Positions 4,745-46,999 of a stretch of DNA of 64,000 nt are shown one piece after another. Source of the DNA: Artemia franciscana (lineage: Eukaryota > Arthropoda > Branchiopoda > Anostraca > Artemiidae); NCBI RefSeq assembly GCF_032884065.1, contig NC_088882.1, forward strand, positions 37,430,519-37,494,518, written 5' to 3'. A model generated the notes under the pieces. That model was not told the DNA's origin, ran no database searches, and saw only the letters and a list, made by a program, of their open reading frames with translations. The position numbers and the translations under genes are program-made. Within the stretch, counting starts at the first letter, position 1, and each line of letters opens with the position of its first letter.

Positions 4745-6400
4745 GATTTGTTTTCAAAATAATATTTTACTTTTTCTTCGTGTGTGAATATGTTGTTCAG
4801 TAAGTGGCAATTTACTTTACAATATACAAAAAGTAGATGCTAAGAATTCTGTTGTCAAAGGTGATATAATTTTGGATGTGTCATTTTTGTTATTGATAAT
4901 TAATTAGTTTCAATTTGGATTTAGTTACATGAATTTCCACTGAATCTTAAAAGTCAGACAAGTAGAATCTGTTAGAGATGGACAATTGAAAATATATGAT
5001 TTTTTATGACAAAACTGCAACAACTGTTGAGAATGACTAAAATTAAATTTATAGTTCACAGAGTTAATAAAGTGCCAGATGCATAATTAAATTTTCCTAA
5101 ATCCAGGATAGAGCATACTACTCACTTGAAATGAGTACTAAATTATTTTTGAACCTTTTTGAATTAAACATTATAGTGCTTTGAGTTGAAAAAAAAAAAA
5201 CATGAGTGGACCTGCCATTTCAGTATTGGTAACAGCTTATGTTCTGCAATTTTACTGTGAAATTGTGTTTTATATTAAAATCCAAGACTACACTTTTAAA
5301 TATAGGTTATTAGCACAGTTTTTGATATTTTTTTCCATCTTACTTTTGAAAATGAATCTCATTTCTAATACTTTTGCTGCTGAAGCAGCTGAGTCCTTGA
5401 TTTCAAATATGTGCAGATAAAATTAACCTTGCTTGACATTATTGATTGTACCATTTATATTTTTAGGGACTTGGTGCTTCCACTCTCTTGTGTAAAACAG
5501 GAGTACTCTTTCCTAGTGTTGGTGATATTTTTGTATATTTTATAAGTGGCATCAACTCTGTTCAAAGATTATATTATTGACATACCTCTTCAAATTCCAA
5601 ATATGGCTGATCTCATCACTTCTTCTGAAGCTTCTCTTATCAAAAATGGTTAGTAATCCAATGAAATTTCTTGTTGCAGAATAAAAGGAAAGCTGCTTTG
5701 CTTTTGTAAATAATTCTTTCTGCTTTCTTCTGTTGTGTGCTTATAGCATGAGCATCAATAAGAATATCAACTACTTTCCATGCCTTTTTTTTTAGCTTTT
5801 TAGATTGTCTTCTAACTGTAGAATATATTTTGCAACTTTCTGTTTGCAACTAAATGCAATTCTTGCTGTTGTTTCTTCAATGCATTTTACTTAGCTGTTT
5901 GTCATCCTCTGCAATTTTGTATGCATCATGGACACAAAAATGTTACATTCAACCAAAGGAAAAGAATTAGGTAATTTTAGCTTTTTGACTTTATATAAAT
6001 GTGATGAGACTCAAATGATTTTTCTTTTGGCATGAATTCAATTCCTCTTTCCTATTTATCTGTCAGTGATGCCAAATGACTTCATTATGTTCCCAGGTGT
6101 TTAAGAAATTCAGTTATGATTCATTTTCTCCCTCCTGTGTATCTTTTGCAGATACTAAAATAACAGTTCTTCATTCTAGGTTGAAAAATCAACAATGTCC
6201 ATCAAACTACATTATTCTGGCATTAACAAATTCTTTTTTCTTATTTATCCTTCACAGACTCATGTACAATAAACTAAATTGTTCCTTCATTCCATTGTAA
6301 CTTTTATCTGTCATCTAACAGCAGATTTTGTTGTGCTGTTTTCCTTTGCAATTGAATGTGATTTTTGCTGCTTCTTGTTCCATACCGTTTTTATGGCACT
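4745..6400. repeat. Paralogous block, copy A first part
   Basis: Aligns by eye with 45140-46730 over most of its length. Shared landmarks include AAAAAGTAGATGCTA near 4827, CATTATTGATTGTACCATTT near 5438 and CTTCTCTTATCAAAAATGG near 5630. Small indels are frequent, so the duplication is old. Frames in the two copies do not stay aligned, so I do not call a gene here. It lies on the 3' side of the decayed helicase at 9.4-11.1 kb and may belong to the same ancient element; that is inference. Confidence 0.65.
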
Positions 6401-11660: not shown

Positions 11661-12480
11661 TCAAACTAGGATGTAAGATGTGGGAACTTGAAAGAGTGAA
11701 CTTGAAAGATATTTGGGATGATGAATGATGCTGATCTTGGCTGCAATGAATTCTACTGAAGCACCCTGAGAATGATGCTGGTCTCCATTGCAATGAATTC
11801 AGCTGCAACACGCCTGCGCAGGTATGAGCCTTGTATTAACAAAAGACATGGCAAATTGATCGATAAACTCGAGAACAAGACGTGGAATAACGTTAAAGTG
11901 ACGCTGGCTTCTTCATATTGGACATAATACATATCACAAAGGTCTAGATAGTTTTTGTGATAAGATAGTACGCCTGTTTTCTAGATTATTGAATTTTTTC
12001 CAAGGACTTGTTTTGGATTGTGAATATTTTGTATGCCTTCATGAATTCAAGTCTGAACAACTACTCTAGCTCATGAGCCAACTCTAACATGACATTTAAC
12101 TCTTTGAAGTGGTAGAAGAAGTGACTAAATAATAGAAATTTTTGCAAACCTATTTCTTTAATGTTTTCCCAAGAAAAAAATTTTTGTTATCAAATGGCTC
12201 TCAATTTTAAAGAATAGGCTTGAAGGTTAACTTAAGGTTACAGCTCGTCGTGCATAGCGCTCAGATTTGGCAACTGTTAATCATCGCTATTATTATTTCT
12301 GAAGATGTAGTTGTTTTTTATTATGTTTACTACTGATGTATACTACTACTTATGTTTACTACACAGTGTTTACTACTAACAGAACGGGTGTTAATATTCC
12401 AGTTTTTGCACTGTGACATTGTCATCTGAGAGGCTGTCCCTATGAAACAGCTACATTGGCCTTAATTTAAAGCTGCACCT
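11082..12480. other. Mostly unassigned; contains an old dispersed repeat
   Basis: The part up to about 11660 belongs to the paralogous block. At 11890-12075 there is a stretch ending ATTCAAGTCTGAACAACTAC then TCTAGCTCATGAGC that is matched in the same orientation at 63241-63432. A ~25-bp word around CGTGCATAGCGCTC occurs at 12248 and again at 12484 with mismatches. No gene can be supported. Confidence 0.4.
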
Positions 12481-14008
12481 CGTTGTGCATAGCGCTCCCT
12501 GTAATTATTTTCAGAAAAAACGAGCGTCTTGTTTATGCTTTATCTTTGGAGTTGTGGCACCTTTTTACATGCTTTCTCTATCGCATTTTGAACTAAAGCA
12601 TTTTCAGGGGGAAGCTATTGACCCATCGATGCTGTTTTACTGTCGTGGAAAAGATACATTTCTAGGTTTGTAAAATATAAACTGTGAAGAAAAGAATCAA
12701 GCAGCTGTGAACCAAAGGGCTGAGGTCGAGTTTCTGTTGGGCGTCTGCTAATATTTTATCAATGTTCCCAGACGTTTAAGAGCAAGGATTCCTTCTATAT
12801 GGAAGAAAAATAAGGTGTTCTACCTGAAATTTTAGCTTTGATGGAATTGAAATGATCTAAAGAACTACACAATCAATTAGTTGAATTATATTGGACCATA
12901 CTCCTTGCTTGTAACAAGAATAGGAACCATCGTAATTTGACCACTGTCCTGCTTAATGCTCTTATTGCTGTAAATGGATATGCAACTTCGAAAGCTTTGT
13001 TGAAGAGTAGGATAAAAATATACCCAACCAACACCTGACCCCAATGGTTGAGAGAACTCTCAGTGTCAAACCGATCCTCACAGAGGCACTAAAGCCATAC
13101 TATGGCAAAATTGAGTAGTATTTTGTCTGCTCTGATGTTATTTCTTGCGATAAATCTGTCCAATTTTCATATAATAAATATCTAGGAGCTTAGAAGCTAA
13201 AAAGGCTGAAGAAATGAAAAGAGAAGAGAGAAAGTAACAAGCAGAAGAAGTTTGTTGTGCATTGAAGTCGTGCATAAGGCTCTGACATCAAAGGATATAG
13301 CTGGACTGAAGATAGCAAAGACCGTGTTAGACACTCTGAAAGGTCAGTGTGAAGGAAAGAAAACTAAAGGCGTAAGTTTAGAAGGTTGAATTGACTTTTG
13401 AAGGAATATAGAGTTAATCTCGAATGCATCAAAAACATAATTCTTCAGCTTATAAGTTGTTCCTTTCTTAGTTATATTTCCTGATCATTTGTAATAGATT
13501 TGAAGCAAATATCCTGATGTAAATGAACTAAGTCAGCAAAGCAAAGGAACACTTGCAATCTAGCAAAACAATTGTCTTCATTTGTCATATTTTAAATTCT
13601 ATACAAAGATTGTCAAGTACAGGAATGTTGATTGGGGCCCAAGAAAACATCTTTTTCAGTGCATTTGTGTAGTTGTGGAAATGGTTTTGCTTGATTGAAT
13701 TTATTTGCAATTACTTAACACTTTCTTCTAAGAAATTGTACCTGATAGTCAGCAGTATATTGGCGAAATGAGAGAGGCTACGCTACATTCTAGTAAGCCT
13801 TGAATATACAAATATTACACATTTCTCTGGAAGATGGACAGTGTTAGGTAAACTTAAGCTCGCATATCTAGAACAGAGGTGATTCTCATCGGTGCTTGTT
13901 TTCTGTTATTTATGCAGAAAGTATGGTTCTGTGTTTCTGACCAAAACAGGGCTGTGTTTCTGTTCCGGCCCTGTTTGGTCCCTTTCTTCTCGAACCAAAA
14001 GTCATTTA
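12481..14008 (+). other. Unassigned region with two weak coding-like islands
   Basis: At about 13037-13120 a frame reads LTPMVERTLSVKPILTEALK and runs to a stop after PYYGKIE. At about 13262-13390 another reads VVHKALTSKDIAGLKIAKTV then LDTLKGQCEGKKTKG, preceded one frame away by a charged KKAEEMKREERK stretch (13200-13236). These look like fragments of a translated sequence, either exons upstream of the zinc-finger gene or a dead element. I recognise neither. There is no consistent splice set linking them. Confidence 0.25.
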
Positions 14009-14408: not shown

Positions 14409-14576
14409 AAGTTGAAGATGTTCTGCCAAGTAATAGTGAGTTCTTTGACACTCCAAATCTTTTTTCGTCTATTAAACGTGAAGATGTTGCTTTGGGTAAT
14501 TGTCCTGGCTTTTCAGAACCATATAAACTTGAGCCTGACACACAGGAAGTGGCCTCCATATGTCTTGACAAAAAAG
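14409..14576 (+). CDS. Zinc-finger gene, tandem exon A1 (168 bp, phase 1-1)
   Basis: The acceptor TTTTTTGTTACAG ends at 14408 and the donor GTACAT starts at 14577. The exon is 56 codons long with one base carried in and one carried out, so it is symmetric. It encodes EVEDVLPSNSEFFDTPNLFS, then SIKRED, and ends EPDTQEVASICLDKK. The peptide is acidic and Ser/Asp-rich and probably disordered. IKRE fits the SUMO acceptor consensus psi-K-x-E. It lies upstream of the C2H2 exon on the same strand with matching phase, which is why I join them. Without transcript data the joining is inference. Confidence 0.7.
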
Positions 14577-16185
14577 GTACATCTTCGTGTCTTATTTGTA
14601 TGCGCAGGTGTTTGCTTAACTGGTTTTTCTGTCTGAAAGGGACATCTTTGAAATTGAGTTACTTAAGTAAAGTTTTACAAAGATTTTTTTCCTAAAAGCT
14701 AGAAAACAAAATTTTAAGCTATAGCACATGTATTTTTTTTGTAAATTGAAACACAAATCCATTTTTTATCATCCTGATTTCGAAATGCTAAACTTTGATT
14801 ATGGTCAAGCTGAACATAAGCTGTCAAGCCCTAAGTCTGAGTTACTTATGATAAGTTTTACATTAGAATGTTAAAATTACTAAAAACAGCACTCAAGCAA
14901 AAATATGAATTTCGTTTTTCTGGTATTTTGAGTAAAAAAAAATTGTTGGAAGAACAATCCTCTTTGCAATCTAGGGGTACATGAGAAGTTATATCAAACT
15001 TTATTAATAAAAAGGAAAGTCAGGGTTTTTTCATGTGAGAAATTCGGTTGAGTTGAAATGAAAAATAAAACTTTAGACTAGGTTAACGAAAATCTGATGA
15101 ACATCCTCATTAATAGAATAGAAAGGTGATTAAAATCTGCCTGAAGTCATTTTTGTAACTATTTACAAGATAAGTCTTGTATTAAGGGTCCTAGGGAGGG
15201 AGTGTATGTCAAAAGAAATTAAAAAGCATTTGTGCTCTGCTTTTAATTGTAATAAGACCAGGGATATGTGCGCCAGTATTCAAGAAATTTAATTCGTATA
15301 GTATGTTGTTGAGTTACTTCTGAAATCTCACCATGGGTAATGATCATAAATCTTTTTGTTAGTATGTTTGTTTTTTCTTTTTTGTATTCATATTTAAGCT
15401 TTGACTCTTTCCTACCATCGTAATATATGAAATACCATCTATTTCCTCGTTTGATAGTCCAAGTGAGAAGAATAAAAACATAAATTTAGAGTAATAATTC
15501 ATTGGCCTTAACAATCAAATTTTGTGGGTGTAATTACTTATTGGACTTTGTTCTCTAAAAAAGAATACAATTCATGTATACATTACTGGAAATCTCTGCT
15601 CAATCTTTACCACAAAGTTGAATCTAAAAACTTATGAACCTACGATATGAAATCTTTCTTATTAATGATTCCTGGTTTTGATTCTTTTTTTCCAAAGAGA
15701 GAAACATATTTAATTTTTTGAATGTTAAATTTACTGAAGTCCCACTATCAAGCCGTTTACCAATAACTTGAGCAAATAAAGTTCATAAATGCCACATATA
15801 TTGGAAGGCATCTAAAGGTACGAAAATTGGATTATTGGAGTCAAATATGTAACAACTTTACTTAGTCAACGCAAAAGGGGCATCCAGTTTCTTAGCTACT
15901 GGTCAATATACTTGCAAAATATATATAGCCCACATCTTTTTTATTTTATTTTTTTTTAACTTATAGCCTGTAAGAAAACTTTCAAAATTTTCTTTTTTGT
16001 CAGGTTTGTTGACCTGTGTCTGTCAAGCCAAACATAGTCGGCTCAGCTGCCTATTCTTTCATTGCCGTCCAAGGGTCATTGTCTATTCCCGTTGCTAATT
16101 TATACTAGAAGTAAAACAGTTCGGTTTGTTTAGCAAGATTTTCTGTTGAATTTGCTTTATGTTTTACATTTATATCTTTTTATAG

Positions 16186-16353
16186 AAGTTGAAGATGTTT
16201 TACCAAGTACTGGTGAGTTCTTTGACACTCGAAACCTGGGTTTGTCTGTTAAACGTGAAGATATTGCTTTGGGTAATTTTCCTGGCTTTTCAGAAACATG
16301 TAAACTTGACCCTGACACCCAGGAAGTGGCCTCCATATGCTCTGATAATAGAG
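16186..16353 (+). CDS. Zinc-finger gene, tandem exon A2 (168 bp, phase 1-1)
   Basis: The acceptor TTTTTATAG ends at 16185 and the donor GTACAT starts at 16354. It has the same length and phase as A1. It encodes EVEDVLPSTGEFFDTRNLGL, then SVKRED, and ends DPDTQEVASICSDNR. The SUMO-type VKRE motif is kept and the frame is open throughout. The preservation of length, frame, splice sites and the KRED core in a diverged copy suggests that it is, or recently was, translated. Confidence 0.7.
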
Positions 16354-18023
16354 GTACATCTGAAATATTTTGTAGAATCAAATATGTTAAATAGCAGTTA
16401 AAATAATTACTACCAGTATTAACTAATTTTACGATGGAACTTTTCTCTTGTCTTGTTCGTACATGCACGTGTTTCCTTAACAAGTTTTTCAGTCATATTG
16501 GGACGTTTTCAAATTGTAACTTAAATATGATTTTACGAAGTTTGTTTTTCTAAAAATTAGAGAACAAAGCCTTAAACTTTATTTTTTATTTATTTGTTAT
16601 TTTATCATTTTGAGACAAAAATCCATACATTACTATCCTGATTTCGAGATGATAGGCTTTGATTATGATTCAACAAGCTGTTGAAATTTGAAGACTGAAG
16701 TATCTACGAGAAGTCTTACTATAGAATGTTAAATTTATTAAAAATCAAACAAAAATATGAATTTATATGTTTTTAATTTTGAATCATTTTTTTTTATTTC
16801 TCTGAAGAACGGTCTTCATTGCAATACAAATCTTGGGGTACGTGAAGAGTTATATCAGACTTTATTAATAAAGACGAAAGTCAGGGATTTTTTATGTGAA
16901 TAATTCGGCAGAGTTGAAATAAAACTTTAAGCTAGATTAACGAAAATTTGATGAAGACCCTCATAAATAGAATAAAATTTGCCTGAAGTCATTTTTGTAA
17001 CTAGTTACAAAATATATCTCTTATTAGGAGTCCTAGGGAGAGAGTGTATATAAAAGAAATTAAAAAGCATATTTGCTCTGCTGACCAGGGATGCGCCGTT
17101 GTTCAAGAAGTTTAATTCATATAATATGCTGTTGATTTACTTCTGAAATCTCACCCTACGTAATGATTATAAATCTTTTTGTTTATACTTTTCTTTTTTT
17201 TATTTATAATCAAGTTTTGACTCTTTCCTGCGATCATTATATACTAACATACTATCCATATTCTTTTGTGACAGCCCACAAGTGAGAAGAACAAAAACAT
17301 AAATTTAGAGCAATAATTCATTGGCCCTAACAATCCAGTCTTGTGGATTTTGACTAGTGAGTTAATTATTAGATTTTATTCTCTCAAAAAAAAAAAAAAA
17401 AAAAAAATACAATTCATGTAAAGGTTACTGGAAATTTCTGCTCTCTCCTTATGTACAAGTTGAATCTGAAAACTAATGAACCTACGATACGAAATCTTTC
17501 TTATTAAGGTTTCCAGTTTTTTATTCATTTTTTTTCCAAAGAGAGAAGGATTTTAACTTGTTTGAATGTTAGATTTACTAAACTCCCAATATCAGGCCGT
17601 TTACCAACCATTGGCATAAATAAAATTCATAAATACCACAGATATTAAAAGGCATCTAAAGGTACGAAAACTGGAGCATTAGAGTCAAAATATATAACAA
17701 CTTTACTTAGTTAACGTAAAAGGGGCATCCAGTTTTTTAGCTATTGGTCAATATACTTGCAAAATATTTCTAGCCTACATCTCTTTTATTTTATTTTTAA
17801 CATATAGCCTGTAAAAGAACTTTCAAGATTTTTTTTTTAAGGTTTATTGACCTGTCTTTGTCAAGAAAAACATAGTGGGCTCAGTTGCATATTCTTTCAT
17901 CTCCTTTCAAGGGTCATTATCCATTCTCATTGCTAATGTGTACTAGAAATAAAACAGTTTGGTTTGTTTAGCAAGATTGTCTGTTGAATTTGCTTTATGT
18001 TTTGTATTTATACCTTGTTATAG

Positions 18024-18191
18024 AAGCTGAAGATGTTTTACCAAGTACCGGTGAGTTCTTTGACGCTCGAAACCTGGTTTTGTCTCTTAAACGTGAAGAT
18101 ATCTCTTTGGGTAATTGTCCTTGCTTTTTAGAACCATATAAACTTGAGCCTGATACCCAGAAAGTGGCCTCCATATGTTTTGACAATAAAG
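18024..18191 (+). CDS. Zinc-finger gene, tandem exon A3 (168 bp, phase 1-1)
   Basis: The acceptor CCTTGTTATAG ends at 18023 and the donor GTACAT starts at 18192. It has 56 codons and the same phase as A1 and A2. It encodes EAEDVLPSTGEFFDARNLVL, then SLKRED, and ends EPDTQKVASICFDNK. LKRE again fits psi-K-x-E. The following intron is only 963 bp, shorter than the 1.6-1.7 kb introns after A1 and A2, and leads to the B-type exons. Confidence 0.7.
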
Positions 18192-19154
18192 GTACATGTG
18201 AAACATTTTGTAGAATCAAATACATTACATAGCAGTTTATTGGGGGAAAATAATTAGACAATTGAAACAATTACTTCAAATATTAACTAATTTTACAATG
18301 GAACTTTTCTCTTATCTTATTCGTACATACAGGTGTTTCCTTAACAGGTTTTTTAGTCATATTGATGCGTTTTCAAATTGTACCTTGGATAAGATTTTAC
18401 GAAGTTAATTTTTTCTAAAAGCTAAATAACAAAGCCCTAAAACTATAGCATATTTATTTATTTTTTTCATATTTAGACACAAATCCATTTATTATTATCC
18501 TGATTTCGAGATGATAGGCTTCGATTATGATTCTGATGGATATTAGCTGTTGAAGTTTGAAGTCTGAACTACCTACGAGAAGTTTTACTATAGAATATTA
18601 AATTTACTAAAAAACGGTACTCAGACAAAAATACGAATTTATATATTTTTAATTTCGAGTAATTCTTTTGTTTCTACTGAAGAAAAATAATTGTTTCATC
18701 TTCTTTGAAATACATGTCTTGGGTTACATGACGAGTTATATTGGACTTTATTAATAAAGAGGAAAGTTGTTTTATTTTTATGTAAGAAATTTTGCAGAGT
18801 TGAAATGAAAAATAAATCTTTAGACTAGGCTAATGAAAATTTTATGAATACTCTCATTAATAGAATGAAAAAGGTGATTAGTATTTACCTGAAGGTGTCC
18901 TTTTTGTCACTATTCACAATGAGTCATGTAATGAGAATCCTAGGGAGGGTATATCAAAGAAAACCAAGTTCAAGTGATGGCAAGAGACCATATTTTATTT
19001 AGGGTTCTAGGTTTTTATATCTTTTCTAAGAGAGGCATTTGTTGAATTATTTGACTTTAAATTTTTCTAGGGTAAATAAAGAAGCAATTAGCGATTTTTT
19101 TTTACGTTGTATATTTTATTATGCTAGAATCCTTATGGATTTTATTTGATATAG

Positions 19155-19313
19155 GAGTGGAAGATTCTAAATCGATTGATACCAGAACCACCATGGACAC
19201 TTCAGATTGTACTCCATCATTTGAATATCGACATCCATCTGTGAATTTTTCACACAGAAAATCTATATTAGCGGTTGAGTCGGGTCCTGACGATGGGGAT
19301 AGTAACCACGAAG
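19155..19313 (+). CDS. Zinc-finger gene, tandem exon B1 (159 bp, phase 1-1)
   Basis: The acceptor TTTGATATAG ends at 19154 and the donor GTATGA starts at 19314. The 53 codons begin GVEDSKSIDTRTTMDTSDCT and end in an acidic GPDDGDSNHE run. The start (xVED) recalls the A exons, so B may be an older offshoot. It is symmetric phase 1. It is paired with B2 and separated from it by an intron that contains Helitron 1. Confidence 0.65.
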
Positions 19314-19536
19314 GTATGATTCAACTTACAATGTTGTAGAATCAGTTTTAGTCAGAAATAACGATGTTTGAAGACGATTTTGATTATTAACAAAACGGGA
19401 AACATTGTGTAAAGCTTTCTAGTCTTTCATTGCATGTCCAAAAGGAAACATTGTCTAAAGAAGTCTTGTTTCAAAAGCTCCATATAAAGGCTAAATTTCT
19501 ATTCCAGATCATTGGAAAATAAAGGATTTAATTTTA

Positions 19537-19879
19537 AACACAGAACAATTGCGAGAACCAAAGTGCCTTGTGAGGCTTTTTTTCATTTTTAAATGTTTCA
19601 CCGGGTCTGTAAAGCTCTGATACTTTTTCTCTGTAATGTCTAGAAAATGGTCTTGAGTGAGTATAAATCTGTTTATCTCCTGTTATTTTTTTTAATAAAA
19701 AACAATGTACCCAGAACAACTAAACTAAACAACTAAAACTAAAAAAAAGTGGACAAGTTTGAAAAATGAGACAAAACAAGAAGCATCAACACATGCCTGG
19801 ACCATTTGGTTATTACGACACTAAGTTCAGAAATCAGAATTTTATTCACAGATTTCGTGTCGAAATAATTGTTAAGTAA
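19537..19879 (+). repeat. Intron repeat R3, copy 1
   Basis: Contains ACACAGAACAATTGCGAGAA, a GGCTTTTTTTCATTTTTAAA stretch and, further on, CATTTGGTTATTACGACACT plus TTCACAGATTTCGTGTCGAA. Copies occur at 22880-23215 (second half inverted) and 24534-24870. Helitron 1 is inserted at its right end. Confidence 0.8.
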
Positions 19880-20038
19880 TCTATATATATAAAAATAAGT
19901 TGTCTGTCTGTGTGTCTGTCAGGTGACGTCATGTTTCTGTGTCGACTGACGTCATGAAGTTAGTTGTCGTCATTTTTGCTATGACGGTGACGTCATTAAA
20001 GATATTTAAGACATATATGTTCACGTAGAAATCTATTA

Positions 20039-20389
20039 ATGTTTAAGTTTAAAATGACTGATGAACTTACAATGGCAAAAGCCGATGAAGATGCTCAAAG
20101 AGTCTATGCCAAAAAACTTGTTGCTGATAGAGAAAGTCAGAAAAGAAAGCGTGCCGAGGAATCAAAAGAACAGCAAGGAAACAGGCTTGAGGCTAAAGAA
20201 CGCAAAACCGCGCAGTTAGATGAAGATCCACCTGGACAGTGAGAGTCAAAACATATCAAAACTGAAAATGATAGCGATGATGATTGGGTTTGGGATTTTG
20301 ACTTGGATAAGGTCATCAATGCCTACCAGATTTTAGTTAAAAAAACAAAGGTTCGGCGATATGTATTTCATAGTGAAGCTGAAAAATAA
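20039..20389 (+). pseudogene. Helitron 1 small charged ORF, with one stop
   Basis: The frame starts MFKFKMTDELTMAKADEDAQ, passes a basic KRKRAEESKEQQGNR stretch and reaches a stop where CAG TGA GAG replaces the CAG CGA GAG of Helitron 2. The same frame continues to a strongly acidic ENDSDDDWVWDFDLDK tail and ends at 20389. A similar reading frame precedes the helicase in Helitron 2. It is probably the N-terminal part of the original Helitron protein; its exact role is unknown to me. Confidence 0.6.
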
Positions 20390-20436
20390 AGAAGAAAAAG
20401 AAAACTGAAAAAAGAAAAAATGTAAAAAACTAAAAA

Positions 20437-21603
20437 ATGGCAGTTTTTGGCTTGCAGCCCGAAATCAAAGATTTCGACGAAATCGTACAATATCAGGCTG
20501 GAAGATACATAAGCAGTAATGAAGCTGTTTGGCGAATTCTTTCATTTCCGATACATGAACGTAGTCCAGCTGTTGTTCACTTAGCGGTACATTTACAGAA
20601 TGGTCAACGTGTTTATTTCTCGGAAACCAACGTGCAACAAAGAGCCCTGAATCCACCGGATACAAAATTAACAGCTTTTTTTCGCTTTGCAAAATTAAGT
20701 CAGTCGACGGCCAACCTACCATCTTCAAAGATACCACGATAGGAAGACTACACCGTTCATCCCAATCAACATGAATGCTTCTTTCTACGCCTGCTTTTGG
20801 TGAATGTACCCGGTCCGACATCCTTTGAGTATTTGAGAACTGTAAATGGTACTATACATGACACTTACCGTAGTGCATGCCAAGCTCTGAATTTATTGGA
20901 GAATGACCAACACTGGGATAACTGCATCAATGACGCGTGCGAAACGTCAACCCCAAGTCAAATTCGTGCATTGTTTGGCATCATTTTAACAACTTGCTCT
21001 CCATCAGCTCCTACAGAGTTATGGGAAAAATATAAGTCAAAAATGTCCGAAGATATACTCCATCGAAAACAGTTAGAGACGTCAGATATGACTTTTGATT
21101 TTACATCAGAAATTTATAACTACACTTTAGTTATTATAGAAGATTTGTGCGTACGTATGGCAAACAAACCTCTTCAGGATTTGTGAATGCCTTCACCTAA
21201 CCGTATCGCTGCTGTTTCGACATGTGTAGAATTGGATCGTGAACAAAGTTACAGTACGAGTGATCTATTGTCGTATGTACAAAATAACATTTCCAAGTTA
21301 ACGTCGGAACAAAAAGACATTTATGATACGATAATGCATTGTGTGCTTGCGGGAGATTTCAGGCAAACATTACCTATAATACCTAGATCAACTCCTGCAG
21401 ACGAAATGAATGCTTGCCTGAAAAATTCTAATTTATGGGCACACGTAAAAATATTGAAATTAACTACAAATATGCGTGTCCGATTGCAAAACGATGACTC
21501 TGGTCAAACATTTTCAGATCAATTGCTGGCAATTGGAAACGGAAAGCTCCCAGTAGTGGGAAAGCCAAGAATGTTGTATATTCGCAATTTTTACGTAGTT
21601 TGA
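20437..21603 (+). pseudogene. Helitron 1 Rep-helicase remnant
   Basis: Fragments in order: VQYQAGRYISSNEAVWRILS and HLAVHLQNGQRVYF (20437-20700), the linker between Rep and helicase in Helitron proteins; a deletion with frameshift near 20700; FLRLLLVNVPGPTSFEYLRT and LWEKYKSKMSEDILHRK (20797-21186); a TGA at 21184 where the sister copy has GGA; then LTSEQKDIYDTIM joined directly to LAGDFRQTLPIIPRSTPADE (21187-21603). That last junction deletes Walker A and Walker B. The Rep HUH nuclease domain is also absent. The product would be inactive. Confidence 0.8.
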
Positions 21604-21689
21604 AACACATATATAAATCTATCTATATTCACAGGTGGGACACAGGGACACAACTACAATGGTGCGTAACTAATATGGTGCGTAACGAC

Positions 21690-21773
21690 TTACGCGCGCG
21701 GGGGGCTTGGGGGGCGCGAAGCGCCCCACCAACTAGGTGTTGGGGTGGCGCGAAGCGCCACCCCAACAGCTAG
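21690..21773 (+). other. Doubled Helitron 3' terminus (two hairpins, two CTAG)
   Basis: The first GC hairpin, GGGGGGCGC-GAA-GCGCCCC, is followed by ACCAACTAG. Immediately after comes the second, GTTGGGGTGGCGC with its partner, followed by AGCTAG. Each looks like a complete Helitron terminator. The same arrangement is present in Helitron 2 at 50513-50596. Confidence 0.85.
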
Positions 21774-22132
21774 TTTTTTATAAAATTTTTGGACTAGGCC
21801 AATGAAAATTCTATGAATACTCTCATTAATAGAATAAAAAAGATGATTAGTATTTGCCTGAATGTGTCCTTTTTGTCACTATTTACAAGGAGTCTTGTAA
21901 TAAGAGTCCTAGGGAGGGTACATCAAAGAAAACCAAATTCAAATGATGGTAAGAGACCATATTTTATTGAGGTTTCTAGGTTTTCATTTCTTTTTTTTTC
22001 TCATAGACAAGTATTTTTTGAATTATTTGAATTTAAAATTTTTTCGTGTAAATAAAGAAGCAATTAGTGATTTTTTGTTTTATGCTGCATATATTATTAC
22101 GCTAGAATCTGTATAGTTTTTTTTTCTTATAG
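21774..22132 (+). repeat. B2 unit upstream intron, paralogous to 18790-19154
   Basis: Shares GACTAGGCCAATGAAAATTC-like and CTCTCATTAATAGAAT stretches, CCTAGGGAGGGTA and AAGAGACCATATTTTATT with the sequence before exon B1. This shows that B1 and B2 were duplicated with their introns before Helitron 1 inserted at the junction. Confidence 0.8.
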
Positions 22133-22291
22133 GAGTTGAGGATCCTACATCGATTGACACCAGTACCCCCATGGAAACATCAGATTGTACTCCATCATTT
22201 GAACATCGAAATCCATCTGTGAATATTTCACCCAGAAATTCCATATTAGCGTCTGAGCTGGGTCCTAACAACGGGGATAACAATGGCGAAG
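22133..22291 (+). CDS. Zinc-finger gene, tandem exon B2 (159 bp, phase 1-1)
   Basis: The acceptor TTTTTTTCTTATAG ends at 22132 and the donor GTAAGA starts at 22292. The 53 codons start GVEDPTSIDTSTPMETSDCT and end GPNNGDNNGE. Length, frame and splice phase match B1 exactly. The protein differs from B1 mainly by conservative and acidic-to-polar changes. It is open throughout. Confidence 0.65.
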
Positions 22292-23280: not shown

Positions 23281-23433
23281 AAGCGTAAGATACTTTACCA
23301 ATTCATAGTGAAAAGCTCTTGGAAATTTATAATTCTAAATTGTCGTCTGAACCTCAAAATATTTCCATCAGTAGTTCACCCGTATCTTCCAGTTTAACAT
23401 CCGAGTCAGATTCCCAGGAGCCTGATAGCGAAG
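23281..23433 (+). pseudogene. Tandem exon C (153 bp, phase 1-1) with an early stop
   Basis: The acceptor TTATTTTTCTTGTAG ends at 23280 and the donor GTATAT starts at 23434. In phase 1 the exon reads EA-stop-DTLPIHSEKLLEIYN and ends SESDSQEPDSE, ready to join a G codon like its relatives. The third codon is TAA where exons A1-A3 have GAA (E-x-E-D). Otherwise splice sites, phase and the Ser/Asp-rich style are kept. Either the exon is dead or its inclusion truncates the protein before the fingers. Confidence 0.55.
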
Positions 23434-25102: not shown

Positions 25103-25501
25103 GTATGTCTATACACTTACTTCGCAGCCAAGCTGTTTTAATACTATTTCATTTGTTCTTTTTATGACCTGTTTTGTGTTTTAACTGGATGTATTATTTA
25201 TCATTTTTAATTAATAGCTGGCGAATGATTTATCATTGCATACTTTGTTTGTCTTCTGTTTTATGTGATTTACGATTCTCTCGCCATTCTACTTCTTTTT
25301 TCTGAAAAAAGCCAATTCTTTCTGAACAAGCTGTCAATATTAATTTTTTACAGCTATTTTAGTTGTTTTAGTGCCTGTTTATTTGATCTCTTTTTGGCTT
25401 ATCTAATCATATTTTATATTATTAAAGGGTTAATCCGCTCTGCAGTGCACTGTTCGGACGGAGTTACTCTACCGCAACTCTCAGGCCCCAAACTGGTCGT
25501 T

Positions 25502-26452
25502 ATGGTGAGAAAACTGACAAAAGAGGCTATAGAAGAATTAACAGCAGGTATTTGGCGATGTATTTCCTGTGGAAAAGTAGAGACATCATTTTTGATGCTA
25601 GATCTTCACATAGACACTGGATGTGAAGAACTATCACCAATAGAATGTGATGTATGTCCAGCCGTGGTTCATGATTACAGAGACTTTGTTGTTCACAATA
25701 TGGAGCACCGAATGGGGGAGAGAAGAAAATGTGCCATTTGTTTACGAGAATTTATTGGTGATATGAGGGAGCATCTTATTTTACAGGGGCACTTTTCACC
25801 GGATGTCTCTGAACTAGACTTGCAAGGGAATGTGTCGCTAGTTGCTTTACAGAATCCATCTACAAGCGTTTTTTTAAACTTTGTTGCATCAGAAACTGAA
25901 GCGAAAGACTTAAACAGTGAGAAAACTTTTTTGAATAGTCGCTTGTTTAGGAAAAAGCAAAGGAAATTAAAAAGACATCAGAGAACACATGCTGGAAAAA
26001 AACCTCATAAATGTGATGTATGCCAGAAGAGCTTTTCCAAACAGGCTAGCCTTAGAGCACACCAAAGAGTACATACAGGTGAGAGACCATATAAATGTAA
26101 TTTATGTCAGAAGAGTTTTTCTGAATCAGGCTCTTTGAAATTACACAAAAGAGTTCATACAGGTGAGAGGCCCTATAGATGTGATATATGTCAGAAAAAA
26201 TTTTCACTATTAGGCCATTTGAAAAGGCATCAAAGAGTACATACAGGCGAGAGACCATATAAATGCGGTGTGTGCCAAAAAAGCTTTTCTGCACCTGACC
26301 ATCTGAATAGACACAAAAGAGTACATACAGGTGAGAGACCATATAAATGTGATATATGTCAGAGGAGCTTTTCCATATCAGGCAATTTGAGAAGGCACCA
26401 AAAAGTACATACAGGGGAGAGACCATATAAATGTGATGTAGCAAACAATTAG
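25502..26452 (+). CDS. C2H2 zinc-finger protein, terminal exon
   Basis: From ATG 25502 the frame gives 316 residues. Upstream in-frame acceptors ending at 25427, 25445 and 25484 are all phase 1 and match exons A-C, so the ATG may be internal. Three divergent fingers come first: C20-C23-H36-C41, C49-C52-H65-H69 and C77-C80-H91-H97. After an acidic spacer and an orphan half finger (LKRHQRTH) come five canonical fingers from C171 to H303, joined by HTGERPYKC linkers. Residues at helix positions -1, 2, 3 and 6 are K-A-S-A, E-G-S-L, L-G-H-R, A-D-H-R and I-G-N-R. A sixth finger is cut after YKCDVANN by a TAG. The family binds DNA in the nucleus, usually as a transcription regulator. I cannot name an orthologue. 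Confidence 0.9.
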   Translation: MVRKLTKEAIEELTAGIWRCISCGKVETSFLMLDLHIDTGCEELSPIECDVCPAVVHDYRDFVVHNMEHRMGERRKCAICLREFIGDMREHLILQGHFSPDVSELDLQGNVSLVALQNPSTSVFLNFVASETEAKDLNSEKTFLNSRLFRKKQRKLKRHQRTHAGKKPHKCDVCQKSFSKQASLRAHQRVHTGERPYKCNLCQKSFSESGSLKLHKRVHTGERPYRCDICQKKFSLLGHLKRHQRVHTGERPYKCGVCQKSFSAPDHLNRHKRVHTGERPYKCDICQRSFSISGNLRRHQKVHTGERPYKCDVANN

Positions 26453-27753: not shown

Positions 27754-28815
27754 ATGTCGGAGAAAGTAGTTTGGAATGTGATATTCAACTTTTTTAAATT
27801 TTGCTCGAAAAGCTGGAAACAAGAGTGATGAGATAAGTCATAAAGCATGTGAGTTTTTTACGAAGGACGATATAATTAAGGCTAAGAATATACTGTGGTC
27901 TTCTGCTCACTACACAAATAGAGTGTCAATTAAAAAGTGCCGAAGTCAATATTAACGAGATGTTAAAGGTACTTGAACTTTGTGAGCATCGTAACATGGA
28001 GCTGCCAGTCTTAATAAGCTAGACGATTTCATGAATAAGGGCCCTCCCGCCCCTTCGATTGTTCCTACAGTTACTGAAACAAAGCCCTCATATGCACTGG
28101 TACTCAAGAATTTGCCCTCTGACCTCAGGAAGTCAGATTTGAAGAAAGGCTTTTTGCAAAAAATTTGTGACAGAGAGTGCTCTAAAATTGTTGAAGTTCA
28201 GCCCGGAAAATATAAATTGGCGGGTTGTTACAGCTAGCAAGGCTGATGGAGAAACTCTTGTTGGGGTCTTTCAGAACTCCGATAAATCTCTTTCTGCAAC
28301 AATCAGGAGCCCCTCTCAAGTCGGTATCGCTCGATCTGTCCCCAGCGATATAAATGACGATGAACTTTGCGCACTGATTCCGAAATGTGTCAGGTCAAAA
28401 CAGATTGACAATAACCCCTCGTTTTGCCTGAAATTTGAAACCAAAGTTCACATTTTGAATGCAATAAAAATTCCTCAGTCATAGACTATGAGAGGATCAA
28501 AGTAGCTGAGTATCTCACCCTCCCAGTGAGATGTTTCAAGTATCAAGCTTATGGGTATATAACCTACAGTGGGAAAAATGAAGCTATTATCGTAGTCTGT
28601 GGTGACCGCGGTCATTCAAGCTTCAAAACATCTCCTCGTCAAACCCCCAAGAAATGTGCATTGTGCAAATCACAAGATTATCCCTGTTATACTTTCAAAT
28701 GTCAAGTTGCTCAAGGGCTATTAAGTAAAGTTAAGTCAGTAAATAGCTCGAGCCTTAAGTCTCTTATCGTGGAATATCGATGGCAAAGTGGTTTACAAAG
28801 GCCTAGTTCTCTCTG
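27754..28815 (+). pseudogene. LINE ORF1 (zinc-knuckle protein), frameshifted
   Basis: Starts MSEKVVWN at 27754. Then, after a frameshift, DEISHKACEFFTKDDIIKAK; after another, MNKGPPAPSIVPTVTETKPS and YALVLKNLPSDLRKSDLKKG (28031-28237). It continues in the next frame to IARSVPSDINDDELCALIPK (28167-28484). A Cys/His cluster (RCFKYQAYG, CGDRGHS, CALCKSQDYPC) at 28526-28720 is a degraded set of nucleic-acid-binding knuckles. The overall order matches ORF1 at 42.15-43.26 kb. ORF1 proteins coat LINE RNA. Confidence 0.75.
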
Positions 28816-28829
28816 AACTTTTTAAGTAC

Positions 28830-30560
28830 AAATGAAATAATTTTTCTGCAAGAGCGTTTTCTTATCTGATGAAAGGAAAAATCTACTCAGCATTTCACAG
28901 AATTCTTGTCTCTTATTTCACCTAGAGAAAATGAGCAAGTGCCGTGCCCGACCTTCAGGGGGATCAGCCATCATTTCACAATTTCCCCTCAATCTCCTCG
29001 AGTCGAATGACCTATGCATTGCTGCGGAATTTTCCGACCTAATCTGTATAAACGTTTACCTGCCAACTAATTACTGCTCTTTGCTGTCAGAGAATTAGTT
29101 CATATTTGCTTGCAAAAGGCTAGCAAATTTTGCGAAGACAGTTTCATAGCGCCCAAATGCTTGAGTTTTGATCGCAGGAGACATTAACTGTGACTTAACG
29201 GACAGTTCATCGCCAAGAACCCAACCCCTTTTGAAAGCCCTCCCTCCTTCCTGCTCAGTTGCAGCCAAAACAGAAACTTTTACGTTTATTGGTATCCTGT
29301 CAGCGACTTCTAGCCTTAGTCATTGTATTGCATCTTTCCCCTGTGAAACCGTCGAGGTAATTAGTGGTGGCTTTTATTCGGATGACCTTCCAATAAAGTT
29401 GAAAATAAATGCTTCGTTTAATGCCTCTAAACAGCCAGATAAAAAGTGGTTTTATATAAAAGACTGGAAAGAAGTTAACCGCGAGATGTTTTGTTTTGAA
29501 TGTGACAGAATATTAAATAAAATAAAGGTGCCCTTTCATTGTTGTACACGCGCTCGGGCCTTAGTGAAAAAGAAACAGCCACTGGACTTACCAACTATAA
29601 CAGAAATTAACCATGCATTAAAGTGGGCTGAAGCTTTAGCTGTCCCGTGCCATCGTGCTAGGAAAGGCTCTCAAGTTCAGGGTTGGCAGAAACACCCTTC
29701 CTTTACGTCTGCGTGCGAGTCTTCTAAAATTTGGCTGAATATTTGGAAAGATTGCGGCAGGCCAAAGTCTGAAACTGTTAACGGTTTGTGGCTACATTTC
29801 AATCCTTATTTGCTGAAGTGTTAAGAAAACATAAGGCTGATCTTATTGAGAAAAACGCTCATAAAATTGCAGAGAACCCTTCGAACGTCTGGAAAAATTT
29901 TAACGCCCTTGTGAACATATTGGTGCAAATAGTATTCCTGAGCCTTAGTGAAACTATTATAAGCATGAGTTTTCTTCTCCCGATCCTGCTCTTGAATCAA
30001 GATCTGAAAAAGAATTAAGTGCTTGTCTGAAAAAGCACGAACCCTGGACATTTATAATTAAGCCAGGTGATTTATCGTTTTATTGTATAAAACTAAAGCA
30101 AAGAAATTCCGCGGGAGTTGATGGAATTACTGCTAGACATTTTGATTTCGCAAGTGCTTTTATTTTTAATCATTTATCTCTGCTTTTTCAAATGTCTATT
30201 GAAAATGGAGTTGTTCCTTGTCAATTTACATTTGGTCAAATAACCTCTATCCCGAAAAATGGCAAAAAGGATATTACAGCGTGTAATTCGTTTCAACCTA
30301 TGACAGTTTCTTGTACTATTTTTAAATTATTTGAGTGTTATTTTGGATGAAATTTTTTCTAAATGTTATGTCCCACCCCACCAGTTTGATTACCAAAAAG
30401 GTATTAGCCGGGAGTATGCCCTTTTTTCTTTAATGAGTGTTCTTGCTTATGCAAAAAGAAGTAAATCTCATATTATCCTTTGTGCTTTAGATGCTGCTCG
30501 AGCTTTCGACTCTTGCATTTTTTTCCAAGTTTTACTTCAAGTGTATAAAAGATTTTTTTT
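28830..30560 (+). pseudogene. LINE ORF2: AP endonuclease plus partial reverse transcriptase
   Basis: Endonuclease signs: a LQERF start, RPSGGSAIISQFPLNLLESN near 28950, INVYLPTNY near 29050, then GDINCDL (29170), TFTFI and SSLSHCIAS. RT signs: SAGVDGITARHFDF (30113), a HQFDYQKGISREYALFSLMS stretch (30380) and motif A ALDAARAFDS (30487), which keeps its catalytic Asp. The frame changes at least at 29100, 29820 and 30340. Sequence after 30560 is not RT. Confidence 0.8.
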
Positions 30561-30663
30561 TATGACGGTGTGGTTTTTATTACTTGATATTTTTTTATCA
30601 ATATTTTTACATCATTTTAATTTCAACAGATTTATTAGAACTTTAATCCTCACCAGATTTTAG

Positions 30664-39073: not shown

Positions 39074-41961
39074 TCAAGATTTTAGTACATTGTTATATAG
39101 CATCCAAAAACTTGAGGATAGCTTGACACTGGAGGGTATTAAATTCCAATGAAGTATAGATTTATAAATTTGGAATTGCTGGGCAGAACTAGAGATACGC
39201 TTGGGGACAATGAAGGAATGGTTGGATAAATGGAGACCGTGGCCTTCAGAATTGTTACTATTAAAATAAGATAATAAGTGGGGAGGAAGATTTTTATGGT
39301 AAGCAGAGTATGCAAGGGATAGATTTAATTTTTTGATGATTTGTTCAAAAGGGATAATACCGAAATTGGAGTACAAGTCCTTGGTGGGATATAGTCGTGG
39401 CAACCGAAAAACTGCTTTGACGGCATTTTTTTGAGCAGATTTTAATTTATTGGTAACTGAAGGATAAGTATTGCCCCATACAGATCCGCAGTATAAGATA
39501 TATGGGTAAATAAAAGAATAATAAAGGGTGACAAGGATATCGGGAGGAAGAAAATAATTCACACAATTAATCATACTTACCTGTTGCAAAATTATGGCTC
39601 TGATATAGGACACATGTGTTGCAAATGATAGGCAGGAGTCTATGTGGACACCAAGAAACTTGGCAACTTTGACCTGCAGAAAGAGATTGGTAGAATATTT
39701 TAGGCCAAGTGCTGGCTGAGCTTCATTTTTTTTGTAAGGGGTTCAAAATAATACCACCTGACTTTTCTTGCTGTTAATGGTCATGCAGTTAACGAGACAC
39801 CACTCCTGTGCTCTATTCAGAAGGGTTTGAGTAGAGGTGATGATGGATGGTAAATTAGGACTGGCAATGAAAAAGTTGCTATTGTCAGCAAAAAGTACTG
39901 GGTGCACTGATGGACCCAGGTCTGTAAACAAATTATTAATATAAAGGAGAAAAAGTATTGGACCAAGAACAGAGCCCTGTGGGACGCCCCTCTGGACAGG
40001 TAGGGGATGTGAAGTCACCCCACCCAGTCTCACACTCTGTACTCTACCAGACAGATAAGAGCTGAACCATGAGAAAGGAACTCCACAAATCCCTAGTTTA
40101 TTGAGTTTACTTAATAAAACACTGTGATCAACCATGTCAAAGGCCTTTGAAAAATCTAGATATAAGCCCAATACAGTATTTTTAAGGTCAAGTTGGGAAC
40201 GTATAAACTGTGTGGCGTCTATTAGTGCATGAGCAGTTGAAAATTTGGCATGGAAGCCATATGATGAGGAGAAATCAACGAATCTGATGAATGATTCCCA
40301 AATACAAAGGGAGAAAGACGTCAGAATATAATTCTCTTGAGCACTTTAGATATAACTGGGAGAAGTGAGATTGGACAATAATTGCTTATCTCAGACAGAT
40401 CACCTTTTTTATGAATTGGGATAACAATTGCTGATTTAAATATTTCTGGGAAGACTCCATTGGTCATAGACAGGTTTGCTATGTGCACAATGGGTTCACA
40501 AATATAGGAAGATACGGTCCTAAGAAGCTTATTACTTCTGCCAAAGGAGTCAGGTGTACTACTATTGGAGAGAGATTCGATAACTTGAAGCACCTCTTTG
40601 CAATCAGCTGGAGAGAAAGACATGGATCTGGGATTCTTGTTAGGTGTACTGACTGTGAGAAGGAACAGGAGTTAGCATTCAGAATATTAGGAAAATAAGT
40701 ATTCAAAGCATCCAGTACTGAAATTGAATCAATTAATCTGCCACTGATGTCCCTAAGGTTAATAGGTTCAGATCTTGAATTCCTTTTTTTGAAAGAATTT
40801 CATTTATTGTAGACCAAATTTTTTGCAAGTTCCCTTTGCAGTGAGAGATTTTTAAATAATAATAATTTTTCTTTGCTTCCCGGATGAGTTTGGTATATAC
40901 GTTTTTGTATTTTTTATAATTAGTCAGGTCAATAACGCTACTGGTTTTGCAAGCTAACTTATATAGGGCATTTTTTCGGTATGAAGAAATTATCAGGACA
41001 TCCAGGGGCATATATGGGTAGTTTTTTGGTTTGATTTACAAACTGGAAAGGTTGAACTGATAAGATCACTCAATCCCTGTGTATAACTACTTGTGGCTGA
41101 ATTAACATCCTGACAATCCAAAATCTTGGACCAGTTGAAGGATTTCAAACAATCTGTGAACCAGTTCATATTCACAGTATTATTTACTTTATTAGACGTA
41201 GGGGTATTAGTTCTACAGGGTTGAGTAGCTGATAGGGAGGGTAGCGAGAGATAGATTGGAAAGTGATCTGACAGGTCAGAAAATATTATTTTGGAGGACA
41301 GGTGGTTTCCCAGGGAAGTGGATACAAAAATGTTATCAATTAAAGTAGCAGTAGACCTCATAGGATCAACTCTAGTAGGAAAAAGGATTGTGGGAAGAAG
41401 ACCACTTGAGGTAAATGTTTCAAAGAAGGTATCACAATGATTATTATTGCTAACATTTAATAAATTACAATTGAAGTCCCCAAAAACTATTGCCTTCCTT
41501 TGTGGTAAATTAATAAAACTAGAAAAATCATCAAACAGATTACAAAAGAAAGGTGTCAGAAATGAGGTTGGTTTATAAAATAACGAAAAAATAAAAGAAT
41601 TCTTGTCTACAGTTATGTCGACGATTATTGAATAAATGCATCTATTATTTATAGGTTGCTAGAACAAGAATTCACAGTCTAATAGTCTGGTGAATTTTAG
41701 ACTTGATTGGATGTAAAGAGAAATGCCGCCAGAGGACTTGGTTAATTTTCTTTCAATATGAATAGCTTGAAAGCCAGTGAGGGAAAATTCATTAGTATCA
41801 TCAATTTCTGAAAGCCACGTCTCTGTTATTCCAATTACGTCGAAAGGGCAGTAACCATTTGTTAAAATTAAATATTTAAAATTAGCCCACTTATCCTGTA
41901 TGCTTCTGATGTTAAAGCAAATTACATTAAGTTTGGTCTCTTCCATTAGCTTGGGTTTCAC
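39074..41961 (-). pseudogene. LINE ORF2: endonuclease and reverse transcriptase
   Basis: Endonuclease: NVICFNIRSIQDKW, GITETWLSE (41961-41659), then GDFNCNLLN (about 41480), LIDNIFVS and SDHFPIYLSL (41361-41260). RT: KSAIVIPIHKKGDLSEISNY (about 40400), motif A LYLDFSKAFDMVDH (40165), motif B QRGVPQGSVLGPILFLLYIN (39990) and motif C FADN (about 39890). The second catalytic Asp of F/YADD has become Asn. The C-terminal domain (39613-39074) includes YPYILYCGSVWGNTYPS and ends at a stop. Frames change near 41650, 41000, 40730, 40320 and 39740. ORF2 nicks target DNA and copies LINE RNA; this one is inactive. Confidence 0.9.
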
Positions 41962-42145
41962 ATTTTTCGCAAAATCAAAAGTGTCGAGATATTTTCAGTT
42001 AATTTGGTTTAAAGGGCTATTGGGGCTAAGGTGTTGGTGGACAGATTATTTTGGTCATCGTAATAGTCAAAAACAACATTATTGCACAGTGATAAATTCC
42101 TGAGAAACGTAAAATCTTGTACAGTACTTGTATAGTCCAATTCCT

Positions 42146-43259
42146 TCATTTAAGGTTTGGGGTTTTCTTTCTGCTGTTAACAATATCACGTAGAATAGGA
42201 CACCGAAGGCTATAAGAAACATGGGATCCATCACAGTTAGCGCATTTGGGCTGCATTTGACACGGTGAATCATGTGTTGCTTCGTGAGGACCAGCAAATC
42301 AAGAGCATTTCAGGAAAGAACTTTTGCAAACCACCTGTAGGTGGTTGGGTGAACGGCACTTGTTACAGCATCGTGGAAGATCGTGAAAAACAAATACTCG
42401 AATTGATTCATACTCAATCCGAATACCATCTTTTAAAGCATGGTCGAGTGACCTGGCATCCATAAAACAGAGCTTTACGGAATTCGAGTTGCCAAGACGA
42501 GTAGCATCAGTGATCCCAGGGATCTTCTTAAACGTAGCGAGTTCAAAATCACTTTCAATGCCTTTAACTAAACCATAGTACTTTTTGGATTTCATTTTCA
42601 CAATTGAGGAGGGTAGGACAGACTGGGCCAAGACACAGAACTCCAGGGCAGCGGTTTTATCAATGGGCACAATCATCTTGTCACCAACAGGTTTAACGGA
42701 CAGAATCGATTCATGACCGCAAACTTGTTCCAGAGCTTGTCTGCGTTTTGTAGGATTGCTCAGATCAGGCGAAACCTTAGATATAATCACTGTGGCATGA
42801 TTTGCATCATTGCGAGACGAAAGGGATGGGAAATTGGTTTCGTAAGACACCATTTTAGAAGACATAGTTTTTAACATTTGTTCACAGCTATTTACTTTCG
42901 CAGCTAATCTAGAGTATGCTACCGCTGGTATACAGGGGACTTCAGTAGGTACACGAATGACATAGCAAGGAATATCCAAATCGTCATTATCACACTCACG
43001 TAGCAGATCGAGAATATTCTTAACATTATTTGATGCTGCCTTAGCACCAATATGCTTTTGTGGCTGGATATCATTGTTAACTGTGTTCCAAAATTCCACC
43101 TTAGCAGAAGAAAAGACTGATCCGTCAAAAAAATCAATGGCACACTTAATTATCAGTTCATCATCTATTCCGGATTTGCTGTATGAAATTTAGCATGGGC
43201 GAGTAAACCAGTTTCCTATCACCCACCGATCGCATGCTATCGCTGTCTGCATCAGACAT
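42146..43259 (-). pseudogene. LINE ORF1 (zinc-knuckle protein), two breaks
   Basis: Starts MSDADSDSMRSVGDRKLVYS at 43259 and has a frameshift near 43165. It continues GIDDELIIKCAIDFFDGSVF and a long open stretch to 42299, with ANHATVIISKVSPDLSNPTK and a C-terminal RCCNKCRSPNHLQVVC knuckle. A TGA near 42297 interrupts a second and third knuckle (HEATHDSPC, KCANCDGSHVSYSLRC). The frame ends RKKTPNLK at 42146. The N-terminus aligns in style with the ORF1 at 27754. Confidence 0.85.
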
Positions 43260-43265
43260 AATTCA

Positions 43266-44935: not shown

Positions 44936-45139
44936 CTTTTCCTTTCTTTAATACCTTTAATAGTCTGCATGAGAAGTTTTAAAGAATGAAAGGATACAAT
45001 AAACAAAAGTATTTATTGTAGGTAATAGTATTATAAATAGTAACAAGGAAGGGTTAGAACTTTTTTGCAATTTGCTTTGGATCTTAGATATTTTATACCA
45101 TTTTTAGGGATTACATGTTTTTTTTTGGAATTCACCATA
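44936..45139. other. No recognisable feature
   Basis: Short AT-rich spacer before the duplicated block. Confidence 0.3.
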
Positions 45140-46730
45140 AATGTGTTTTCAAAATAACATTTTGCTTTTACTTTCTGTGTTAATATGGTGCCCAGAAATT
45201 GGTAATTTACTCCACAATATAAAAAAAGTAGATGCTAGGAATTTTGTTGTCAAAGATCATATTATTTTGGATGTTGTTTTTTTTTTTATTTGGATTTACT
45301 GAGTTTCTTTTTTGATTTTGTTTCAGATGAATTTTCACTGTATCTTAAAAGTGATACATGTAGAAACATCTATTGATAAACACTTGAAAATATATGATTG
45401 GTGATGACAAAAACCATAACAATTTTTTAAAATGACTAAAGTTGTATTTATAGTGGGCTGAGTTTAGAGCATACACTATGTCTTTAAATTGTCTACAGAA
45501 TAGTTATGTCTGGGGGATTGGCTCTTTAGTTTGGTTTGAGCTGAGCAATAAATTATTTTTGAACTTCTTTTTTATTTAGAAGTTATGTTGCTTTGAGTTA
45601 AAAAAGAAAGATGAATTTACCTGTTATTCCAAAATTGGTAACAGCTTACATTCTGAAATTTTACTGTGAACTTATGTTTTGTCTTTAAAACTGTACTTTT
45701 AATTGTAGCTAGGTTGTTAGTGCAGTTTTTTCCTTTTTTTTATTTTTTCTATCCTACTTTTTTACTTTTGAAAATGGATCCCATTTCTGACACTTTTTAC
45801 TACTGAAACAGTTGAGCCCTTGATTTCAAATCTGTGCAGATAAAATTACCATTGCTTAACATTATTGATTATGCCATTTATATTTTTAGGGGTTTGGTGC
45901 TACCACTCTCTTTTGTGAAACAGGAGTATCCTTTCCTATTGTTGGTGATGTTTTTGTACACTTCATAATTGGTATCAACTCAGTTCGTGGATTGTATTAT
46001 TGAAAAACTACCTCAAATTTTAATTATGGATTATCTCACCATTCCTTCTAAAGCTTCTGTTATCAAAAATGGTAAGTGATTCAATAAAGTTTCTAGTTGC
46101 AGAAAAAAAAGGAAAGCTTCTTTGTTTTTGTAAATAATTTTTTTGGCTTTTCTTCTGTTTTGTTCTTATAAAGTGGACCTCAACGAAAAACTAATAACTT
46201 TCCATAGCTTTTTTTTAGCTTTTCAGATTGTCTTCTAACCATAGAATAATACAAAAACAATACAGCCAACCCTGGGTAAAAAATTGGATAATTTTGGCTC
46301 TTTAGGCTTACCTTATATAAATGTGATTTTTTGTTGTGGCATGAATTCAACTCCTCTTTCCTGTTTATCTGTGACTGATGCCAAAATAACTTCATGACAA
46401 TCCTAGGTGGGTAAAAAAGTCAGGTGTTAATTCATTTTCTCCCCACTGTGTATCTCTACAGATCCCCAAATATCAGCTCTTCATTCTAGGATGAAAAATC
46501 AGCAATGTTCATTCCATTACATTACACAGGCATGAATTCAATTCCTTCTTCTTGTATATCTATCCCAGACTCATGCACAATAAACTAACATGCTTTTCAT
46601 TTCATTGCAACTTTGCTTTGTCATCTAACAGTAGATTTATTGTGCAATTTTTTCTTTGAGATTAAATATGGTTTTTGCTTTTTTCTTGTTTCATGCAGTT
46701 TTTTTAAGCTGTTCAGAGTCATTTTTCACC
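45140..46730. repeat. Paralogous block, copy B first part
   Basis: Counterpart of 4745-6400, with AAAAAAGTAGATGCTAGGAA (45223), TTGCTTAACATTATTGATTA (45852) and GCTTCTGTTATCAAAAATGG (46052) as landmarks. Indels are frequent. Confidence 0.65.
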
Positions 46731-46940
46731 TTTTTGTAATTTCTATGTGTCATACAAAAAGCAATGCAACCACTCCCAAGGTAATATGATGTCATGTGTT
46801 TATGACGTCATCAATCCGTTTTTTTAAGACGTTAACAACTCTTCTCCAACTTTGACCAATCTAGATCATGTTTTCCATGTCAGAAAATCTTAGGATGCCA
46901 ATCTTAAAAAAGTGGAGTCATTTTCAAGAAATTTTTTAAA

Positions 46941-46943
<3 letters not shown>

Positions 46944-46997
<54 letters not shown>
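46944..46997. repeat. (AT)n microsatellite
   Basis: About 27 uninterrupted AT units. Confidence 0.95.

Positions 46998-46999
<2 letters not shown>

Follow-up and report, generated by a model that had tools for sequence, protein, structure and literature searches.

Tandem copies of symmetric exons ahead of a zinc-finger exon in Artemia franciscana, and their possible inclusion in series

What might a gene do with several copies of a small exon whose inclusion never disturbs the reading frame? The question is raised by a stretch of 64,000 nucleotides from the brine shrimp Artemia franciscana, here called the window (C20:37430519-37494518 of the searched genome, which is 1.27 Gb in 6468 contigs). 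On well-supported sequence grounds the window appears to hold one plus-strand gene, spanning 5603-26452, that belongs to a large zinc-finger family. Its exons, in window positions, are as follows.

5603..5648, + strand: exon M, the probable first coding exon (MADLITSSEASLIKN); 15 codons plus 1 nucleotide, donor in phase 1 (AAAAATG/gttagt)
14409..14576, + strand: exon A1, 168 bp, phase 1-1, EVEDVLPS...IKRED...YKLEPD
16186..16353, + strand: exon A2, 168 bp, phase 1-1, with VKRED and CKLDPD
18024..18191, + strand: exon A3, 168 bp, phase 1-1, with LKRED and YKLEPD
19155..19313, + strand: exon B1, 159 bp, phase 1-1
22133..22291, + strand: exon B2, 159 bp, phase 1-1
23281..23433, + strand: exon C, 153 bp, phase 1-1, AG and GT intact, TAA at codon 3
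25485..26452, + strand: finger exon Z, five complete C2H2 fingers

The A and B copies show the pattern of tandem exon duplication, with homologous exons, a duplicated flanking intron and symmetric phase. The original prediction had given these five exons to the base, and everything it claimed of them is present: AG before and GT after each copy, phase 1 at both ends, a stop-free common frame and copied introns. It had also placed the finger exon correctly, and its claim that any choice of A and B is neutral to the frame holds for all 32 of the 32 exon subsets. The five copies and Z are open with intact splice sites, and the introns between the A and B exons, of 0.96-2.8 kb, have ordinary GT-AG sites. 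Chance similarity as an explanation of the copies was rejected.

We think it reasonably probable that these exons form one gene, M-A-B/C-Z, in which splicing joins the A and B copies in series to give an acidic N-terminal arm with SUMO-type sites. Unequal tandem duplication, with each exon copied along with its intron, would have taken A to three copies and B to two, with C dead; modules could be added without damage to the frame because all the internal exons are phase 1-1. If transcribed with A1-A3 and B1-B2 in series, the gene would encode a protein of 611 amino acids, with a long acidic N-terminal part, probably flexible, that carries three pairs of K-x-E sites. As SUMO acceptors, or as other short binding sites, these could recruit co-regulators, perhaps repressive ones, to DNA chosen by the fingers, and more A copies would mean more valency. 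Serial inclusion is a preference and not a result. We prefer it because nothing forces a choice between copies, and because A is doubled under one M elsewhere in the genome.

The joining of the A and B exons to the finger exon, which had been proposed from strand, order and phase, gains support from strand and order in paralogues and from one A-finger fusion that has no intron. Of the A-Z pairs no more than 15 kb apart among the matches listed, 32 have A upstream on the strand of Z, 3 have it downstream on the other strand, and none shows any other arrangement; B exons are upstream of Z and on its strand in 13 of 13. These counts are of pairs, not of independent events, and some clusters are near-identical copies. 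A listed Z lies within 15 kb of 33 of the 150 A exons listed. The fusion is at C14:41302254, where an A exon runs into a finger exon, and it is the sole row, out of 124 (with the best 150 of 191 scored), that continues from the A part far into the Z part. The part joined there is the start of the finger exon, not the start of Z. At two other loci (L020 and L021) an open frame of 508 amino acids unites a B/C-type exon with a finger array; this in-frame fusion apparently arose by deletion and not at exon borders. Close to its start, Z has an ATG whose context is fair. We rejected it as the start of the gene, as it is missing from the next gene, the tandem paralogue that follows; the conserved order and strand of A, B and Z at other loci and the in-frame A-finger and B/C-finger fusions also speak against it. 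A candidate extra exon near 25045 (tctcttaacag/AAAAGAAG...) was likewise rejected, and is left out of the gene model because its counterpart in the next gene (TTGACAAAAAGG) lacks the AG and has an in-frame TAA.

The start exon was sought by comparing the two gene copies for a common ATG with an open frame to a common donor in any phase. Among 99 ATGs common to the window gene and its tandem paralogue, only 5603-5648 passed, and its donor is in phase 1, the phase required by the A exons. A stricter version of the scan returned no candidate, because the window donor gttagt scores low. The counterpart lies in the window.

46026..46071, + strand: probable first exon of the tandem paralogue (MDYLTIPSKASVIKN), the A, B, C and Z of which follow just past the window end

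Elsewhere the stretch MAEPITIPETDVVKK, with the donor AAAAAAG/gtaagt, sits 1.5-1.7 kb 5' of an A exon at four loci that are near-identical to one another (L017, L020, L021 and L023). The window M resembles it in sequence, length and phase, and the flanks are similar too. A DNA search with MAEPITIPETDVVKK gave 40 matches, 35 of them with a listed A exon, and in 38 of the 39 M-A pairs no more than 10 kb apart M precedes A on the same strand. The window M is not among the 40 matches, having presumably diverged beyond the reach of a DNA search; the case for it thus rests on the shared-ATG scan and on its likeness to the start exons of paralogues.

The family is large. A protein search with A1 gave at least 150 matches (the best 150 of 202 candidates were scored) and one with the 158 residues that precede the fingers at least 151 (the best 150 of 615), counts that are lower bounds and in which some genes appear as two pieces. 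With B2 as query, 17 matches came up at E 1: nine lie at 1.6e-7 or below and eight at 0.04-0.9. Many paralogues in this one genome have a common N-terminal module and a finger exon. They look like one more zinc-finger family that is lineage-specific and has an N-terminal module of its own, and the window gene would be a copy-rich member of it. The next gene, in which A, B, C and Z follow one another in the same order just past the window, stems from tandem duplication of a segment of about 22 kb with the whole gene, since 4746-26847 aligns collinearly with 45141-64000 onward, interrupted by repeats. Flanks give conflicting answers on whether A was duplicated before or after the split from the next gene: the upstream flank places A1 outside P and A2/A3 (79), the downstream flank places A1 with A2/A3 (95), and the joined flanks give 85. 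A-type exons are doubled under one M at three of 35 loci (on C21, C107 and C82), and close pairs of A exons occur also on C7 and C18.

Two K-x-E sites stand out in the A exon. Conservation was read from 82 distinct A exons out of 101 (the others were 10 with stops or an odd length and 9 identical copies). E1 shares the splice-site G; behind it the best-conserved columns are E25, K23 and K40, and next E47, S36, S21, L20 and E42; K23 is present in 77 of the 82 and E25 in 79. Use of A1 as query favours columns in common with A1, but this does not explain the lead of the K-x-E columns. The sites of A1, A2 and A3 (IKRED, VKRED and LKRED, then YKLEPD, CKLDPD and YKLEPD) look like SUMO-acceptor sites, and at K23 these three exons fit psi-K-x-E. 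SUMO-dependent synergy-control motifs of this type, and their effect in nuclear receptors, are described in sections of PMC3373386, and the predicted likeness here is of K-x-E sites in the N-terminal part of a DNA-binding protein. The A exons appear to change fast yet stay open. Omega over the 82 is 0.77, and stops occur in 8 of the 101; we take the exons to be held open because this is far below the approximately 37 stop gains expected if they were neutral, along a tree that omits the A exons with stops. Within the window, the A1/A2 and A1/A3 exon differences are about half those of the introns (p 0.0006 and 0.0015), and the A2/A3 exon is slower than its intron less clearly (p 0.07). The comparison of dN/dS (the ratio of nonsynonymous to synonymous divergence) that the original prediction had called for gave estimates that are all below 1 (A pairs 0.62, 0.47 and 0.78; B1/B2 0.60), but the limits are wide and include 1, and none is significant alone.

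Might the copies instead be alternatives, with one A and one B in each transcript, or a regulated number giving a set of tails? This was the proposal of the original prediction, a graded or mutually exclusive set, and we consider it unlikely though worth keeping in mind. In its favour, all 32 exon choices are in frame and the copies have diverged. Sections of PMC9013439 connect tandem exon duplication in other systems with mutually exclusive choice and argue that duplicated intron structures can cause it. However, a search for docking and selector sequences of the A exons (12400-14007, 18815-19154 and 19314-22132 against the A units, exact complementarity only) turned up no perfectly complementary stretch of at least 11 nt shared by two or more A units, and pairing counts equalled the control (10 versus 9 at 9 nt, 1 versus 2 at 10 nt). 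Nor does any incompatibility of frame or splice site enforce a choice, for symmetric exons force no exclusion, and all three A copies retain the K-x-E motifs. The proposal of a choice is without support here. A further reading, that the locus is decaying and that the extra copies in this cluster rich in transposable elements have no function, strikes us as quite improbable. It would account for the dead exon C with its stop, the Helitron-like insertion described below and a finger frame of 407 codons where the next gene has 503; a relative on C5 (L015) has a broken Z frame, the B exon is not slower than its introns, and dN/dS within the locus is not clearly below 1. Against decay, the five A and B exons and Z are open with their sites intact, and the A exons are slower than their introns.

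To return to serial inclusion, several observations besides the precedent for exclusive choice weigh against it or against parts of it. No A-A junction without an intron, as would come from intron loss or retrocopies, was found among 84 matches (the best 150 of 205 candidates were scored). The M donor of the window gene scores 2.2, against 6.4 in the next gene. The C14 fusion is a single instance, and a chance deletion there is possible because the nearest relatives of its finger part have a long Z. For the A pairs alone dN/dS of 1 is not rejected, and omega for the window clade of six (0.75) is not distinguishable from 1. B1 and B2 differ at 27 of 159 exon positions (17%) and at 61 of 588 intron positions (10%; p 0.026), which gives no sign of constraint on the B exons; dS is high too for this pair, so that either the exon changed faster or the introns were homogenised. 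K23 is preceded by proline in 48 of the 82 family members, in place of the large hydrophobic residue of the psi-K-x-E synergy-control motif. The predicted disorder of A comes from a single-sequence structure model of A1 with a predicted local distance difference test score (pLDDT) of 53.8, too weak for a fold search. It is because of this proline and this low confidence that we put the SUMO role conditionally.

Were exon C included, translation would end at codon 292 of 663. In the next gene exon C (L009:3718-3870) is open, but its AG and GT are both lost. A search with that intact C gave 8 matches at E 1, of which the strong ones are itself and the window C only; three matches on C5 and C2536 carry TAG and one on C6 is stop-free. 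Exon C is thus dead, or becoming so, across most of this family branch.

Exon Z consists of a Cys/His-rich region followed, in the same exon, by tandem C2H2 fingers joined by TGE(K/R)P linkers, and the gene is in this respect a C2H2 zinc-finger gene. By eye, the first 100 or so residues (25505-25800) contain three CxxC-H-like units. This N-terminal region reached no Pfam cut-off, and its structure model (pLDDT 37.5) is too weak for a fold search; it recurs at dozens of loci among 150 matches listed, some of which are pieces or weak. In a relative on C7 (L131) it was not found, and the finger exon begins at GHFSP. No Pfam match of any kind was obtained for A1, B1 and B2 at E 1 or better, and none to KRAB or ZAD at E 1 for A1, B1, B2 and Z (for Z, the best 25 of 32), the four exons scanned.

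In the KRAB-ZNF family of tetrapods, the ZAD-ZNF family of insects and the FiNZ-ZNF family of cyprinid fish, the N-terminal module lies in one or more exons of its own and the fingers in one last exon. The family described here has the same layout, and like those it is large, clustered and fast-turning, with a short N-terminal module. The A module is acidic, as is that of FiNZ, which is compared here by description (28 amino acids and Glu-rich, according to sections of PMC10547256), and the part before the fingers evolves fast, as sections of PMC7655104 report for ZAD-ZNF. Unlike all three, A has about 56 amino acids with two K-x-E sites, and the modules are multiplied as exons inside one gene. 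In that respect the locus resembles exon clusters of the Dscam type, with tandem copies that include introns and share phase and splice sites, but here the copies are symmetric, all could be included, and there is no sign of exclusive choice. Rapidly expanding zinc-finger families with a defining N-terminal module are known from tetrapods, insects and fish. We found no paper on such a family in brine shrimp among titles and the starts of abstracts, with few searches aimed there, and "zinc finger" is absent from the main text of PMC11492255 and of another Artemia genome paper. If our reading is true, a crustacean has its own such family, with the module copied as an exon inside genes. The natural series of one, two and three copies would then probe whether the number of effector sites alters the action of a zinc-finger protein, and whether tandem exon copies start as protein repeats or as splicing alternatives. 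It would be a long shot to go further, and to see in the exon a duplicable, frame-neutral unit of SUMO or co-repressor valency, in an apparently undescribed animal family, by which copy number and splicing tune the effector arm independently of the finger targets.

A scan of the window for bacterial-type promoters is not meaningful for this gene. One mobile element lies within it.

19878..21773, + strand: Helitron-like element with broken helicase-like frames and TC...CTAG ends, between the B1 and B2 units

The element is a putative Helitron; in the Artemia franciscana assembly of PMC11492255, Helitrons make up 8.81%. Three pieces of it match a second copy at 47962-50608, and its 3' end lies about 10 bp from the onset of the B2-unit similarity. 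Around the gene there are also putative elements of the LINE (long interspersed nuclear element) type, with what by appearance are broken reverse-transcriptase-like frames, at 1784-2437, 28143-30663 and 39074-44978.
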